From: Mesorhizobium sp. NBSH29
GTDB lineage: Bacteria > Pseudomonadota > Alphaproteobacteria > Rhizobiales > Rhizobiaceae
Direction: 5' to 3'
NCBI RefSeq assembly: GCF_015500055.1
Contig: NZ_CP045492.1
Span: 1,746,501 to 1,810,500 of the forward strand
DNA length: 64,000 bases
Shown here in pieces: positions 22,633-62,484 of this stretch. Below the pieces are notes generated by a model. It did no database searches. It was not told the DNA's origin and saw nothing but the letters and a program-made list of their open reading frames with translations. The translations under genes were made by a program, and so were the position numbers. Positions within the stretch are counted from its first letter, which is position 1, and every line of letters starts with the position of its first letter.

Positions 22633-23699
22633 CTGCGGCGCAGCGGTCTGGTCCATCGCCAGCTTCTGGAGTTCTCCATCAACCGCAGGTGCCCGTGCGC
22701 CGAGCGCAATTGGGATGAGAGGTGGATGATCTTCCGTTCTGCGTCTTCTGCCTGAGCCTGAGCGTTAGCCTGTAAGGCCGCAATCTTGTCTTCGGTCTGG
22801 CGCGTCAGCACTGCAATGTTCTGTTGGTGCTGCGATGTCAGCGCCTCAACCGCGTCTTGGTGCTGTGCCGTCAACGCCTCAATCGCTTCCTGCTGTGGCG
22901 TCACCGCTTGTATCGTATCGCCGTGTTGCCTGGTCAGCGCCTCGGCGCGGAGCAGTTTTTCAGCCGTCTCCCGGTGTGCCGCCTGCTCCCTGGACAGGTC
23001 GACCGCGCGCGAGACAGCACGCCCCAGATTGGCAAAGAGCTGACGGACAGCCTCCGCTTCCGTGTCTGAGCATTCGAGCAGCTGGCCGAAGCTATTGGGT
23101 ATTTCGGACCCCACGCCCAGCACGCCGAGCCCGTGGCCGTGGTGGAATGTAAAAGACGGGTACCGTGCAACAAGCTCTTCCCAAAGCTTCCAGACGCCGA
23201 AATCGTCGCGCCTCACGTCAGTATCGTGAAAAAGAATGACACCCCGTTCGCTCATCAATGGCAGCCAGGCCTCAAAATCGGCCTTCACAGCTTCATACGT
23301 GTGCAATCCATCAATATGCAAAAGGTCGATCGAGGCAGGCTCGAAATTCTTTGCCGCATCATCGAAGCGGCTTTGCACCAGACTGGAGAATTCCCCATAA
23401 CGTGCATCATGCACGGTGCGAAGCTGGGCTAAAACCGCGCTGTCATAAAGCCCTGCATGCTCATCGCCTTCCCACGTATCGATAGCGGAGAACGGGGCCT
23501 CGGCACCCAGCACCACCGCGGCCTGGCAGAAGGCGCAATAGGAATCGCCATAGTGGGTTCCCAGTTCGACAAACCGCCGTGGTGCGAGTGTGGCCACAGC
23601 AAAAAACGCGAAAGGGATGTGCTCTACCCAGGCACTGTGACCGGAGAGGTACTGAGGATGGGTGGTGGCTGCTGAGATCGAGCTAATATTGAAATTCAT
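22629..23699 (-). CDS. SAM-dependent methyltransferase with coiled-coil tail
   Basis: A class I methyltransferase of the Methyltransf_24 type, often found in polysaccharide loci. The core carries FVELGTHYGDSYCAF (motif I) near residue 52, SAIDTWEGDEHAGLY, and DLLHIDGLHTYEAVKADFEAW near 135, then GVILFHDTD. The last 120 residues are a coiled coil with repeated ALTRQH/ALTAQH/ALTSQH heptads, ending WRWTRPLRRS. ATG 23699 fits the family N-terminus, and an in-frame GTG at 23786 is possible. It is convergent with the fused glycosyltransferase, and their stop codons share CTAG. A role in O-methylation or chain-length control is inferred. Confidence 0.75.
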   Translation of the reverse strand: MNFNISSISAATTHPQYLSGHSAWVEHIPFAFFAVATLAPRRFVELGTHYGDSYCAFCQAAVVLGAEAPFSAIDTWEGDEHAGLYDSAVLAQLRTVHDARYGEFSSLVQSRFDDAAKNFEPASIDLLHIDGLHTYEAVKADFEAWLPLMSERGVILFHDTDVRRDDFGVWKLWEELVARYPSFTFHHGHGLGVLGVGSEIPNSFGQLLECSDTEAEAVRQLFANLGRAVSRAVDLSREQAAHRETAEKLLRAEALTRQHGDTIQAVTPQQEAIEALTAQHQDAVEALTSQHQQNIAVLTRQTEDKIAALQANAQAQAEDAERKIIHLSSQLRSAHGHLRLMENSRSWRWTRPLRRS

Positions 23700-39282: not shown

Positions 39283-40605
39283 GTGACGACAGACAGGGAA
39301 AGTCTCGAATTCCAGGCGCGCGCAACAGGAAGCGTGCTGGGCTTTCCCGCGCATGAGGGCCGTCCCGGCGCGTTGGGCGAGGTTCATGCACGGCCTCACC
39401 CACTGGTAGAGACCCCACGCGTTCTGGTCCAGCTTTCATTCATGACCGAGGGCGGCTCGGGCGTCGACCAAGCGGTTCTGTCCGAACTCTCGCGTCGGCT
39501 TGGCATCGCAGCGCCCGGCCGCAGCGCCCGCCACCACGCCATGAAATGGGGGCAGGGCACGCTGCGCTGGGAGCGCCACACCGAGTTCTCGACCTACCAG
39601 TGGGAAGGCCCGCTTGGGGAGGGTGGACGCGCCAGTGAGCAGACGCCCTTTGGCAATGGCTTTTCACCCCCCGGAACAGTCATTTCCGGCATCCGGCTGG
39701 AGGTCCGCCCCTGGACACCGGCCAACGAGGCGCTGATCTATAGTTTTGACGCGGCAAGTCTGTGCTATTCACGCGTGGAGCAGGGCAAGGCTGCCATCAT
39801 TACCGATTTCCGTCAGGATGGTGATGGCCTGACACGTATTCTGGTTCTCGATCGTGGCCTCACTCCGGCCCGCACAGGCGCTCTCCTGCAGCGGCTCATC
39901 GACATCGAAACTTATCGCACGCTGGCCATGCTCGGACTTCCGCTTGCGCAAAGCCTGTCGGCACGCGCTCGCGGCATCGAGGACCGTCTGGCCATCGCCA
40001 CCCGCGAAATGAAGGATGCTGAAACCCGCAACAGCCAGACGCTGCTCGCGGATCTCACCGAACTCGCCGCCGAACTGGAGGCCGATGCCGCGTCCAGCCT
40101 TTACCGTTTCGGCGCCAGCCGCGCCTATGACGGCATCGTCATCGAACGGCTGGATGCGCTCGATGAGGAAGCCGTGCCCGGCTACGATACTTGGGCCGGC
40201 TTTTTGCAGCGCCGCGTCGCGCCGGCAATGCGCACCTGCCGCTCGGTTGAAGAACGCCTTGCCAATCTGTCGCGAAAACTCACCCGCGCGACAACATTGC
40301 TGCGCACCTGGGTAGATGTGGAGGTCGAACAGCAAAATCGCGATTTGCTTGCATCAATGAACAACCGCGCCCGCCTTCAACTGCGCCTGCAACAGACGGT
40401 CGAGGGGCTATCGGTCGCCGCCGTCTCCTACTATGTGGTCGGCCTGATCGCCTATCTGGCCAAGGGTGCATCCGTGTTCGGTCACGCCATTGCACCCGAG
40501 ATCGTCACCGCAGCCGCCGTCCCAGTCAGCATCTTGCTGGTCTGGTGGGGTGTGCGCCGCGTCCGCCGCATGCATGCCGAGCCCGTCAAGCCCGCCGGCG
40601 AGTAG
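39283..40605 (+). CDS. DUF3422 membrane protein
   Basis: A protein of about 440 residues matching DUF3422, a family of unknown function common in alphaproteobacteria. It begins with a conserved block (GFPAHEGRPGALGEVHARPH) and continues with FMTEGGSG and WERHTEFSTYQWEG. It has a long helical middle and ends in two membrane helices (VSYYVVGLIAYLAKG and IVTAAAVPVSILLVWWGV). GTG at 39283 has AGGGA about seven bases upstream; an earlier TTG is possible. It lies between the lactate operon and glcDEF but nothing shows a functional link. Confidence 0.8.
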   Translation: MTTDRESLEFQARATGSVLGFPAHEGRPGALGEVHARPHPLVETPRVLVQLSFMTEGGSGVDQAVLSELSRRLGIAAPGRSARHHAMKWGQGTLRWERHTEFSTYQWEGPLGEGGRASEQTPFGNGFSPPGTVISGIRLEVRPWTPANEALIYSFDAASLCYSRVEQGKAAIITDFRQDGDGLTRILVLDRGLTPARTGALLQRLIDIETYRTLAMLGLPLAQSLSARARGIEDRLAIATREMKDAETRNSQTLLADLTELAAELEADAASSLYRFGASRAYDGIVIERLDALDEEAVPGYDTWAGFLQRRVAPAMRTCRSVEERLANLSRKLTRATTLLRTWVDVEVEQQNRDLLASMNNRARLQLRLQQTVEGLSVAAVSYYVVGLIAYLAKGASVFGHAIAPEIVTAAAVPVSILLVWWGVRRVRRMHAEPVKPAGE

Positions 40606-40716
40606 CGCTGTTGCCCGTCCGCCGTGTCGGTGCCAGCGGCAGATTGCCGCTGCGGAAGCAGTGCACGCCAGTGCTGCGCCGATTGCACAAAGCTTGATTT
40701 GCCAGCTTCGCTCATC

Positions 40717-40739
40717 ACTGGTAAAAGATTATTACCAGT
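40717..40739. promoter_or_regulatory. Perfect dyad in glcD leader
   Basis: ACTGGTAA (40717-40724) and TTACCAGT (40732-40739) are perfect inverted repeats with a 7-base spacer, ending six bases before the AGGAGG ribosome site of glcD. It may be an operator for a GntR-type regulator of glycolate genes, or an RNA hairpin that affects translation. Which one applies is inference. Confidence 0.5.
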
Positions 40740-40759
40740 TACTCAGGAGGATGGCCAGA

Positions 40760-42256
40760 ATGTCCGGGCTGATAATGCCGCCACCAGATCAGCAGACGCT
40801 GGCGCGCCGCGCCGAGATTGTGGCCGACATGCGCCAGATCGTGCCGGGCGAGGGTGTGGTCGATGCTGTCAATTCCATGCGCGCTTTTGAGAGCGATGGG
40901 CTGACCGCCTATCGCCAGCTGCCACTGGTTGTGGTGCTGCCTGAAACCACCGCGCAAGTGTCGCGCATTCTCACCTATTGCAATCAGCGCGGCATAAAAA
41001 TCGTGCCGCGCGGTTCTGGCACATCGCTGTCGGGCGGTGCATTGCCGCTGGAAGATGCGGTGCTTCTGGTCATGAGCCGCTTTAACCGCGTGCTGGATAT
41101 TGATTTTGATAATCGATGCGTGGTCGCCCAGCCGGGCGTCACCAATCTTGGCATCACCACCGCCGTCGAGCAGCAGGGGTTTTACTATGCCCCTGACCCA
41201 TCCTCCCAGATCGCCTGCTCGATCGGCGGCAATGTCGCGGAAAATTCAGGCGGTGTGCACTGCCTGAAATATGGCCTTACCGCCAATAATCTTCTCGGCA
41301 TAGAAATGGTGATGATGGATGGCGAAGTGGTGCGCCTTGGCGGCAAGCATCTGGATAGCGAGGGCTATGATCTGATCGGCGTGATGACTGGTTCTGAAGG
41401 GCTGCTCGGCGTCGTCACCGAAGTGACGGTGCGCATTTTGCAAAAGCCTGAAACGGCGCGTGCTCTGCTTCTGGGGTTTCCAACCTCTGAAGAGGCCGGC
41501 CAATGCGTGGCCGATATTATTGGCGCGGGCATTATTCCAGGCGGCATGGAAATGATGGACCGCCCCGCCATCCATGCGGCGGAAGATTTCGTCCATGCCG
41601 GCTACCCGCTCGAATGCGAGGCGCTTTTGATCATTGAACTCGATGGCTGCCCTGATGAAGTGAACCATCTGATCGAGGCAGTGGAACGGATTGCCGCCCA
41701 AAACGGCTCCACCACCTGCCGCATCTCGCAAACCGAAGAAGAGCGCATGACCTTCTGGGCGGGTCGCAAGGCAGCCTTTCCGGCAGTGGGCCGCATCTCG
41801 CCAGATTATTACTGCATGGATGGCACCATTCCGCGCAAACAATTGCCGACCGTTCTGGCTGGAATGCGCGAATTGTCCGCCAAATACGGTCTGGGCGTTG
41901 CCAATGTCTTCCACGCTGGCGATGGCAATCTGCACCCGCTCATTCTCTATGATGCCAACAAGCCCGGCGAACTGGAAAAGGCAGAAGATTTCGGCTCTGA
42001 TATTTTGCGCCTCTGCGTCAAGGTCGGCGGCGTGTTGACTGGCGAACATGGCGTCGGTGTCGAAAAACGCGATCTGATGCCTGAAATGTTCAACCAGATA
42101 GATCTCGACCAGCAGATGCGCGTCAAATGCGCGTTCGACCCCAACCACCTGCTTAACCCCGGCAAAGTGTTCCCGCAATTGCGCCGCTGCGCCGAACTTG
42201 GCCGTATGCATATTTCCGGCGGCAAACTGCCCTTTCCAGATATTCCACGGTTTTGA
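40760..42256 (+). CDS. glcD: Glycolate oxidase subunit GlcD
   Basis: This is the FAD-binding catalytic subunit of glycolate dehydrogenase, which oxidises glycolate to glyoxylate. Residues 1-498 include the FAD-binding PCMH domain (VPRGSGTSLSGGALP near 93, then PDPSSQIACSIGGNVAENSG) and a C-terminal domain with NVFHAGDGNLHPL and the terminal HLLNPGKVFP. ATG 40760 has AGGAGG nine bases upstream; a nearer in-frame ATG at 40751 directly abuts it. It is the first gene of glcDEF and is followed by an unusual array of palindromic repeats before glcE. Confidence 0.93.
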   Translation: MSGLIMPPPDQQTLARRAEIVADMRQIVPGEGVVDAVNSMRAFESDGLTAYRQLPLVVVLPETTAQVSRILTYCNQRGIKIVPRGSGTSLSGGALPLEDAVLLVMSRFNRVLDIDFDNRCVVAQPGVTNLGITTAVEQQGFYYAPDPSSQIACSIGGNVAENSGGVHCLKYGLTANNLLGIEMVMMDGEVVRLGGKHLDSEGYDLIGVMTGSEGLLGVVTEVTVRILQKPETARALLLGFPTSEEAGQCVADIIGAGIIPGGMEMMDRPAIHAAEDFVHAGYPLECEALLIIELDGCPDEVNHLIEAVERIAAQNGSTTCRISQTEEERMTFWAGRKAAFPAVGRISPDYYCMDGTIPRKQLPTVLAGMRELSAKYGLGVANVFHAGDGNLHPLILYDANKPGELEKAEDFGSDILRLCVKVGGVLTGEHGVGVEKRDLMPEMFNQIDLDQQMRVKCAFDPNHLLNPGKVFPQLRRCAELGRMHISGGKLPFPDIPRF

Positions 42257-42270
42257 TGCACTTGAGCGCC

Positions 42271-42464
42271 CCCCTCTCCGTCGCGCTTCACGCGCCACCG
42301 CTCCCCCGAAGGGGGCGAGGAACCATGTTTGCGATTAGCAGTTCCTCGCCCCGCCTGCGGGGAGAGGTGGATTGGGCAAAGCCCAAGACGGAGAGGGGCC
42401 TTTGCGCCCTCATTGTTTTTGCCATGCGGGGTGTGTCGGCATGAAATCATTTTCTGTCGTGGCT
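42271..42464. repeat. Palindromic repeat unit 1 of 4
   Basis: The first of four tandem units of about 194 bp between glcD and glcE. A 128-bp palindromic core (42271-42398) has nested arms: CCCCTCTCCGTC with GACGGAGAGGGG outside, and GGGGGCGAGGAAC with GTTCCTCGCCCC inside. A 66-bp spacer containing TTGTTTTTGCCATGCGGGG follows. It resembles the dispersed palindromic elements of rhizobial genomes but is not one I can name with certainty. Confidence 0.85.
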
Positions 42465-42658
42465 CCCCTCTCCGTCGCGCTTCGCGCGCCACCTCTCCCC
42501 CGAAGGGGGCGAGGAACCATGTTTGCGATTAGCAGTTCCTCGCCCCGCCTGCGGGGTGAGGTGGCTTGGGCAAAGCCCAAGACGGAGAGGGGCCTTTGCG
42601 CCCTCATTGTTTTTGCCATGCGGGGTGTGTCGGCATGAAATCATTTTCTGTCGTGCTC
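42465..42658. repeat. Palindromic repeat unit 2 of 4
   Basis: Nearly identical to the first unit, with core 42465-42592 and a spacer to 42658. Differences are single bases such as GGGGTGAGG for GGGGAGAGG. Confidence 0.85.
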
Positions 42659-42853
42659 CCCCTCTCCGTCGCGCTTTGCGCGCCACCTCTCCCCCGAAGG
42701 GGGCGAGGAACCAGGTTTGCGATTGTCAGTTCCTCGCCCCGCCTGCGGGGAGAGGTGGCTTGGGCAAAGCCCAAGACGGAGAGGGGGCTTTCGCGCCCTC
42801 ATTGTTTTTGCCATGCGGGGTGTGTCGGCATGAAATCATTTTCTGTCGTGCTC
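42659..42853. repeat. Palindromic repeat unit 3 of 4
   Basis: Core 42659-42787 plus spacer. The inner loop reads GATTGTCAG instead of GATTAGCAG, a variant shared with the fourth unit, which suggests stepwise duplication. Confidence 0.85.
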
Positions 42854-42982
42854 CCCCTCTCCGTCGCCCTTTGCGCGCCACCGCTCCCCCGAAGGGGGCG
42901 AGGAACCATGTTTGCGATTGTCAGTTCCTCGCCCCGCTTGCGGGGAGAGGTGGCTTGGGCGAAGCACAAGACGGAGAGGGGG
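42854..42982. repeat. Palindromic repeat unit 4 of 4, no spacer
   Basis: The core is complete but the spacer ends after GCTTTCGCGC and runs into the glcE leader. Slight decay in the outer arm (GAAGCACAAG for AAAGCCCAAG) suggests this copy is among the older ones. Confidence 0.85.
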
Positions 42983-43005
42983 CTTTCGCGCTCCAAGGCA
43001 AAACC

Positions 43006-44235: not shown

Positions 44236-45522
44236 ATGCAAACCACATTCACGCCCGCTCAATTGGCCAATCCGCATGTCGCTGAATCTGAAAAGATCCT
44301 GCGCAATTGCGTGCATTGCGGTTTTTGCACCGCCACCTGTCCCACCTATGTGACGCTCGGCAATGAGCTGGATTCGCCGCGCGGGCGCATCTATCTCATC
44401 AAGGACATGCTGGAAAATGATCGTCCGGCAGATAACCAGATCGTCACCCATATAGACCGCTGCCTGTCCTGCCTGGCCTGCATGACGACATGCCCATCTG
44501 GCGTCAATTACATGCATCTGGTTGACCATGCCCGCGCCCATATTGAAAAGACCTATACGCGCTCCTTCACCGACCGTGCGCTGCGCGCCATGCTGGCCTT
44601 CGTGCTGCCGCATCCGGCACGCTTTCGCGCAGCCCTCAAGCTGGCGCGTCTGGGCAAGCCGTTCGCCGGTCTGTTCGATCGCATCAAACCGCTGAAGCCG
44701 CTGGCCGCCATGCTGCGGCTGGCACCCGCGACCCTGCCGCCCAAGCGCGCAATCAGCGTCGCGCCCATATCAGGCGCTCATAAGCGGGTCGCTATTCTGG
44801 CCGGCTGCGCGCAATCTGTGCTCGACCCCGGCATAAATGATGCAACGCGCCGCCTGCTGGCGCGGCTCGGCGTGGAAGTGGCTATACCCAGGAACGAAGG
44901 CTGCTGCGGTGCGCTGGTGCATCATCTGGGCAAGGAAGAACAGGGATTGGCCGCCGCGCGCCAAAACGTCGATGCCTGGACCGCCGAGATGGAGCGCGGG
45001 CTGGATGCCATCCTTATCACCGCATCCGGCTGTGGCACAACGATCAAGGATTACGGCTTCATGCTGCGGCTCGACCCTGCCTATGCCCAAAAAGCCAGGC
45101 GCGTGTCTGAAATCGCCTGCGACATCACAGAATTTCTGGCCACGCTGCAACTGCCCGAACCTGCGCAGCAAACCGGCCTCAGCGTCGCCTATCATTCCGC
45201 CTGTTCCATGCAGCACGGCCAGAAGATCACCCGCCTGCCTAAAGACCTTCTGGCACGGGCAGGCTTCACCATCCGCGAACCGCGCGAAGGCCATTTGTGC
45301 TGTGGCTCAGCTGGCACCTACAACATTCTCCAGCCCGAAATCTCGGCCCAATTGCGCGACCGCAAAGTCAAAAACATCGCCGCCACCAAGGCTGACATCA
45401 TCGCCACCGGCAATATTGGCTGCATGACGCAGATATCAGGCCGCGCAGGAATGCCGATTGTGCATACGATAGAATTGCTCGATTGGGCCTATGGCGGGCC
45501 AAAGCCGGTGGCTTTGGGTTGA
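44236..45522 (+). CDS. glcF: Glycolate oxidase iron-sulfur subunit GlcF
   Basis: This is the electron-transfer subunit of glycolate dehydrogenase. It has two 4Fe-4S clusters: CVHCGFCTATCPTY near residue 22 and CLSCLACMTTCP near 76. Two CCG-type domains follow with NEGCCGALVHHLG and GHLCCGSAGTYN, which bind further cofactors or subunits. The 428 residues are normal for GlcF. It starts three bases after glcE. The stop codon is separated by one base from the convergent Abi-like gene, so no terminator fits between them. Confidence 0.93.
   Translation: MQTTFTPAQLANPHVAESEKILRNCVHCGFCTATCPTYVTLGNELDSPRGRIYLIKDMLENDRPADNQIVTHIDRCLSCLACMTTCPSGVNYMHLVDHARAHIEKTYTRSFTDRALRAMLAFVLPHPARFRAALKLARLGKPFAGLFDRIKPLKPLAAMLRLAPATLPPKRAISVAPISGAHKRVAILAGCAQSVLDPGINDATRRLLARLGVEVAIPRNEGCCGALVHHLGKEEQGLAAARQNVDAWTAEMERGLDAILITASGCGTTIKDYGFMLRLDPAYAQKARRVSEIACDITEFLATLQLPEPAQQTGLSVAYHSACSMQHGQKITRLPKDLLARAGFTIREPREGHLCCGSAGTYNILQPEISAQLRDRKVKNIAATKADIIATGNIGCMTQISGRAGMPIVHTIELLDWAYGGPKPVALG

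Positions 45523-60810: not shown

Positions 60811-62484
<1,674 letters not shown>

Follow-up and report, generated by a model that had tools for sequence, protein, structure and literature searches.

A tandem palindrome array at the glcD-glcE junction of Mesorhizobium sp. NBSH29 and a candidate DUF559 nuclease partner

How does a chain of long palindromes come to lie between two genes of one operon, and what might have put it there? The window analysed here, a stretch of 64,000 nucleotides of Mesorhizobium sp. NBSH29 (contig NZ_CP045492.1, positions 1,746,501 to 1,810,500), holds such a chain between a glcD-like and a glcE-like gene. The initial annotation, made from the letters alone, had described it as four tandem units of 194, 194, 195 and about 129 bp with hairpin-forming cores; the array is real, its units beginning at 42271, 42465, 42659 and 42854, with TRF in agreement. 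It proves to be a tandem cluster formed by a REP/BIME-like palindrome that is dispersed in the genome. The main point is one that could not be seen from the window alone, namely a nuclease partner. We regard as probable that the array is a locally amplified REP/BIME-like cluster whose family is partnered with a Vsr-like DUF559 nuclease, which may cut the palindromes, with repair spreading them.

The array and the junction that holds it

The features discussed are as follows, with positions those of the window.

40466..42256 (+): glcD-like gene; longest frame from a GTG at 40466, the true start lying further downstream; the stop codon (42254-42256) is overlapped by an ATG (TGATG)
42271..42464 (+): unit 1, 194 bp; palindrome core 42271-42398, then linker up to 42464
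42465..42658 (+): unit 2, 194 bp; core 42465-42592 (left half about 42465-42518, 14-nt centre, right half about 42533-42592), linker 42593-42658
42659..42853 (+): unit 3, 195 bp; core 42659-42786, then linker up to 42853
42854..42982 (+): unit 4, 129 bp; core without linker, 24 bp upstream of the glcE start codon
43006..44232 (+): glcE-like gene, 408 aa (G000:C1:1789506-1790729)
44236..45522 (+): glcF-like gene, 428 aa, following glcE in the operon

The name glcD comes from the initial annotation and the neighbouring genes, homology to relatives having been computed, and the last gene we take to be glcF from the glcDEF order and its two CxxCxxC-type clusters. Across 42271-42982 the units run head to tail, TRF calling 42270-42991 with a period of 194, 3.7 copies and 96% matches. 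The cores are 92-97% identical to one another and the three linkers 95.5-98.5%. Units 1 and 2 have the variant GATTAGCAG in common and units 3 and 4 the variant GATTGTCAG, and likeness is generally highest between adjacent units; this is the pattern predicted by stepwise duplication, which the initial annotation had proposed.

Each palindrome consists of two inverted halves of about 55-60 nt. Core 2 (127 nt) is predicted to fold into one long stem bearing two small side hairpins, at -91.9 kcal/mol as compared with -54.0 kcal/mol (sd 3.8) in 200 dinucleotide shuffles, none of which was as low (z -9.9); this agrees with the long hairpins claimed for the cores. A search of the whole window with Rfam at gathering scores returned nothing but one tRNA. 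Intrinsic terminators or promoters within the array were considered and set aside, both being at chance level; a weak hairpin with a T run behind it does recur per unit at the linker starts (42395-42410, 42589-42604 and 42783-42800), the number of such sites also being at chance. Further short tandem repeats lie elsewhere in the window, at 60824-60883 (12-bp period) and 22824-22886 (33-bp period).

From the glcD stop to the start of the glcE match the window has 749 bp. Among 30 glcE loci, our own included, this gap is at most 64 bp in 19, 83 and 107 bp in two, and at least 590 bp in nine, the measure running up to the start of the glcE match, which is not in every case the start codon. The array does part genes that lie close together in most of the relatives compared, as had been claimed. 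The nine long junctions are of four kinds: the window's array, a DUF559 gene between half palindromes (twice, in G001 and G034), a vapBC-like gene pair (three times, L026, L027 and L028) and a Uma2-like gene (three times, L032, L033 and L036). These cassettes were typed with Pfam on one PIN and one Uma2 member and otherwise by eye, two PIN genes being checked further. With four kinds of content in nine of the 30 loci, the glcD-glcE junction looks like an insertion hotspot.

We write R for a half palindrome and L for its inverted form. In G001, which belongs to the same genus as the window's genome, half palindromes enclose a DUF559 gene at the junction, and there is no array. When contigs were scanned with the DUF559 alignment, DUF559 genes adjoining glcD came to light in four further cases, namely M. 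neociceri, Mesorhizobium sp. Root102, a Hyphomicrobiales MAG and M. alhagi. The order glcD-R-DUF559-L-glcE is present in five relatives, namely G001, G034 and the first three of these; in M. alhagi it reads glcD-R-DUF559-L, and the contig breaks off within another palindrome, short of glcE. G001 has an extra open stretch upstream of R, and the Root102 copy, with a match of 404 bases, has an apparent frameshift further on.

Reading these sequences by eye, we found the DUF559 frame open through R in all six junction relatives; in five of them an ATG placed at the glcD stop or directly behind it could serve as the DUF559 start. The two observations together suggest coupled translation of DUF559. 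The R half palindrome is itself read in frame as the N-terminal stretch of the DUF559 frame (L223-L226, L129 and L138). The outer ends of the window's array are L...R, the opposite of the R-DUF559-L order in the relatives, so that plain loss of the gene from such a unit does not yield the array.

The palindrome family and its association with DUF559 genes

The whole-genome search that the initial annotation had recommended for the core revealed a dispersed family. BLAST with the array unit gives 40 matches, spread over about 14 sites of its own genome (4.0 Mb, 4 contigs) and all on C1 among the matches listed; in the per-genome repeat counts, which are lower bounds with 13 candidates scored per genome, this genome has at least 36. 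The family occurs as L-R palindromes, lone R halves, one lone L half and R-linker-L. A second array, at C1:3161687-3163115, has five complete palindromes and one partial one behind a gene that is presumably nrdJ, for a B12-dependent ribonucleotide reductase, to go by its C-terminus. The linkers of the two arrays are unlike one another and are alike within stretches of each, as is expected from local duplication. Among 12 aligned L-R copies the main-stem sequence is conserved, and since both sides have changed in only 1 of 38 consensus pairs we make no claim of selection on structure through compensatory change. By a crude ORF test, six of 13 palindrome sites are clear of frames of at least 150 aa and seven overlap one, several of these at the edge of the frame. 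At one further place (L190, G000:C1:2898800-2902200) two L-R palindromes stand about 550 bp apart, and between them is another inverted repeat with CCTCATCCTGAGG-like ends, which belongs to a different repeat family.

The one DUF559 (PF04480) match in this genome, at C1:3162251-3162559, lies between palindromes of the second array. It scores 113.8 bits against a curated cut-off of 20.6, and the junction genes of G034 and G001 score 113.3 and 116.6 bits. A tree of 81 DUF559 domains (133 columns) unites this gene and the six junction genes in a clade (support 96/89) and nests it within the junction genes (81/88). In the glcE tree the window groups first with G001 as its sister (88/88) and next with G034 plus L225 (87/88), and all of these relatives have a junction DUF559; support on the key inner branches of both trees is moderate only. 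The simplest history would be that a DUF559 gene once stood at the window's junction and has since gone, with a member of its lineage now elsewhere in the genome.

We next consider DUF559 genes at large. For each DUF559 match the 500 bp upstream were aligned to the reverse complement of the 500 bp downstream, and a score of at least 40, a cut-off chosen after the scores were seen and standing at a wide gap from the controls, was counted as an inverted repeat. In the first set (74 matches in 60 genomes, our own included, less two weak matches and one at a contig end) 44 of 71 loci were positive and 27 negative. In the second set of named loci (80 kept of 577, less two at a contig edge) the result was 52 positive and 26 negative of 78. 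By comparison, inverted flanks were found at none of the 28 PIN-domain loci tested, which came from 10 of these genomes (30 taken, two dropped as too short), and, in 20 segments of 20 kb that were hand-picked at round coordinates in 16 genomes and are thus not random, at none of 115 ORFs and one of 760 windows. At least three loci (L091=L245, L094=L273 and L099=L244) are common to both DUF559 sets. One of these places scored 57 as L099 and 20 as L244, the match bounds having run into the arm in the latter, and the positive counts accordingly depend on those bounds. Positive named loci are from alpha-, beta- and gammaproteobacteria and from MAGs labelled Nitrospira, Binatia and SAR202, labels which may be wrong.

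Two genomes reveal the boundaries of the unit. In G029, copies L097 and L101 share 94.5% identity across 508 bp; in G028, copies L126 and L153 share 88.9% across 470 bp. In both pairs the identity breaks within the palindromes, and the collinear flanks beyond are 23-29% identical, which is chance level.

Protein and palindrome are also paired in type. Over 44 flank clusters, with shared loci collapsed, protein similarity and arm similarity are correlated (Mantel r 0.26, 0 of 5000 permutations), and in 18 of the 44 the nearest protein partner is within the three nearest arms (permutation mean 3.0, maximum 11). This run replaced an earlier one, duplicates and orthologues included, that had given a Mantel r of 0.36 and 38 of 77. 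The upstream arm is G-rich towards the gene in 66 of 77 loci, the reverse in 10 and tied in one, orthologues included.

With regard to co-occurrence, the window-type repeat is present in 10 of 34 genomes with DUF559 as compared to none of 26 without (Fisher p 0.0017), and a second type, the L231-type repeat, in 9 of 16 with and 4 of 20 without (p 0.028), both values being uncorrected for kinship and genome size. The four genomes with L231-type repeats and no DUF559 match are G009, G012, G036 and G040, which indicates that such repeats can exist today without the gene being there today. G012 has about 20 such copies and G040 about 15; the gene may have been lost, or another agent may be spreading the repeat.

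The protein itself has a nuclease fold. The predicted structure of the M. neociceri DUF559 protein (L224) has a pLDDT of 82.5, and DUF559 matches PDB entry 3hrl by sequence at E 1.4e-36. In structure comparison (Foldseek/VIA) the model reaches Z 14.4 to 3hrl, 11.0 to I-Bth0305I and 8.8 to Vsr, with Foldseek E values of 4.8e-7, 5.9e-3 and 4.6e-2, of which only that for 3hrl passes 0.001. Among 21 DUF559 sequences E28, D57, D70, H74 and D80 are invariant, at spacings of 29, 13, 4 and 6. By spacing these residues appear to fit, in a mapping of our own, those of the DUF559 protein VsrA of Caulobacter (CCNA_02930), which are E73, D102, D115, H119 and D124, spaced 29, 13, 4 and 5 (PMC12907096, accessible part). 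The same part of that source reports that VsrA is genetically required for a DNA-damage response in a methylase mutant, that its overexpression brings no SOS rise in the wild type, and that it is proposed to be a mismatch-repair enzyme (PMC12907096).

A possible mechanism and the alternatives

How might such a family spread? The basic piece is the half-unit R (inverted, L), roughly 55-60 nt in length, which forms a hairpin of its own and bears a G-rich tail; two such halves, inverted relative to each other round a short centre, make the palindrome L-R, and the partner, a small DUF559 nuclease of the Vsr / I-Bth0305I fold, is carried as R-DUF559-L. Such a unit may have stood at glcD-glcE in the ancestry of the genus. 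In the window's lineage the gene would then have gone from the junction, which kept an amplified chain of palindromes, and the second array behind nrdJ now houses a gene of the same clade. We envisage that the nuclease would recognise palindromes of its own type, perhaps when they are extruded as hairpins, and nick or cut them. Repair would then make further palindromes by copying or duplication, sometimes together with the gene and sometimes not, and slippage or unequal exchange between adjacent units would lengthen the tandem chain. The cutting, the movement it would cause and the order of events at glcD-glcE are what we infer rather than observe. DUF559 proteins are not known to cut palindromes, and a search of the open-licence literature found nothing linking DUF559 to palindromic repeats.

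Alternatively, the array might be an ordinary REP/RIME-type cluster, with DUF559 a cellular Vsr-like repair gene or a passenger among repeats spread by other machinery. The L231-type repeats in genomes lacking a DUF559 match would fit this, as would the apparent role of Caulobacter VsrA as a repair enzyme (PMC12907096, accessible part) and the description of similar rhizobial repeats with no such gene in the accessible parts of two studies (PMC5082802, PMC2873474). Against it stand the inverted palindromes on both sides of DUF559 in over half of the loci of either set, as against one case in all the controls, and the unit boundaries at the palindromes in G029 and G028. The tracking of arm type with protein type after collapsing shared loci and, with kinship uncorrected, the confinement of window-type repeats to genomes with DUF559 point the same way, and we consider this alternative unlikely, though the strongest of the rivals. 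A selected RNA function, as the initial annotation had entertained, is a good deal less probable still. Here the hairpin chain would set how much glcD message there is relative to glcE-glcF message, through processing, protection of the 3' end or partial termination; four highly stable predicted hairpins in a 749-bp gap within an operon invite the idea, and REPs are reported to protect upstream message and to act in termination at the RNA level (PMC5082802, accessible part). But what relatives have at this place is either a gene cassette or nothing at all, and the hairpins are accordingly not conserved at the junction; terminator-like sites number three against 2.0 +/- 1.8 in shuffles; and the 12 copies offer that single doubly changed stem pair. 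An RNA effect on glcD versus glcE would likely be a by-product, as for REPs elsewhere. As to assembly artefact, tandem repeats are a classical source of error, but the units are not identical, with differences at several positions, and the array is far inside a contig of 3.6 Mb in an assembly of four contigs; about 13 other sites carry the family as well. Distinct units within so long a contig speak against an artefact, which we find scarcely credible.

Returning to the preferred reading, a nuclease-partnered palindrome family, we can put forward a bolder version of it only tentatively, and hold it to be possible rather than probable: DUF559 with inverted palindromes would form a widespread self-spreading class, in which a Vsr/homing-type PD-(D/E)XK nuclease, in place of a transposase, recognises its own palindrome, and cutting and repair would give rise to REP-like repeats in many Proteobacteria and perhaps beyond, the glcD-glcE array being an amplified remnant. 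If alphaproteobacterial palindromic repeats without a RAYT do have a Vsr/homing-type nuclease partner, this would represent a second, testable route to REP-like repeats, would provide a role for a domain of 'unknown function' and would link a repair-enzyme fold to selfish DNA. At glcD-glcE itself, an operon junction appears to have repeatedly received small nuclease cassettes and repeat arrays.

Comparison with known systems

The closest parallel in layout is that of the REP, BIME and REPIN sequences that are paired with RAYT (Y1 HUH) transposases and have a conserved tetranucleotide at the hairpin foot. As in that system, the palindromes here are short and dispersed, with lone halves, inverted pairs and tandem clusters (REPIN/BIME) all represented; a gene is flanked by inverted copies, and there is one repeat type per protein type. 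The numbers are modest, about 14 sites and 40 matches as compared to the hundreds quoted for REPs, and the flanked gene is a PD-(D/E)XK, Vsr-like DUF559 nuclease. A RAYT as driver was rejected, as a search of the window's own genome for Y1_Tnp (PF01797) gave 0 matches; with the defining transposase absent, the element resembles REP-RAYT by layout and is not a member. The Rhizobium-specific intergenic mosaic elements (RIME; Osteras 1995) are reportedly palindromic intergenic mosaic repeats of the same bacterial family. The array palindrome presumably resembles RIME in sequence, and RIME is not known to have a partner gene.

For the nuclease, the nearest known parallels are the homing endonuclease I-Bth0305I and Vsr (PDB 3r3p, 1cw0, 1vsr; EDxHD), which it resembles in fold, at the Z scores given above, and in its pattern of acidic and histidine residues. 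It differs from them in that the DUF559 gene stands by itself between palindromes and was not seen within an intron. Caulobacter VsrA is of the same domain family and has the same predicted catalytic residues, but was studied for mismatch repair, and palindromes and intergenic or inverted repeats are absent from the accessible part of that text (PMC12907096). Finally, there is a likeness to TIR transposons and MITEs, in that terminal inverted repeats stand round a gene (R-DUF559-L) and an internally changed short form (R-linker-L) occurs beside it.
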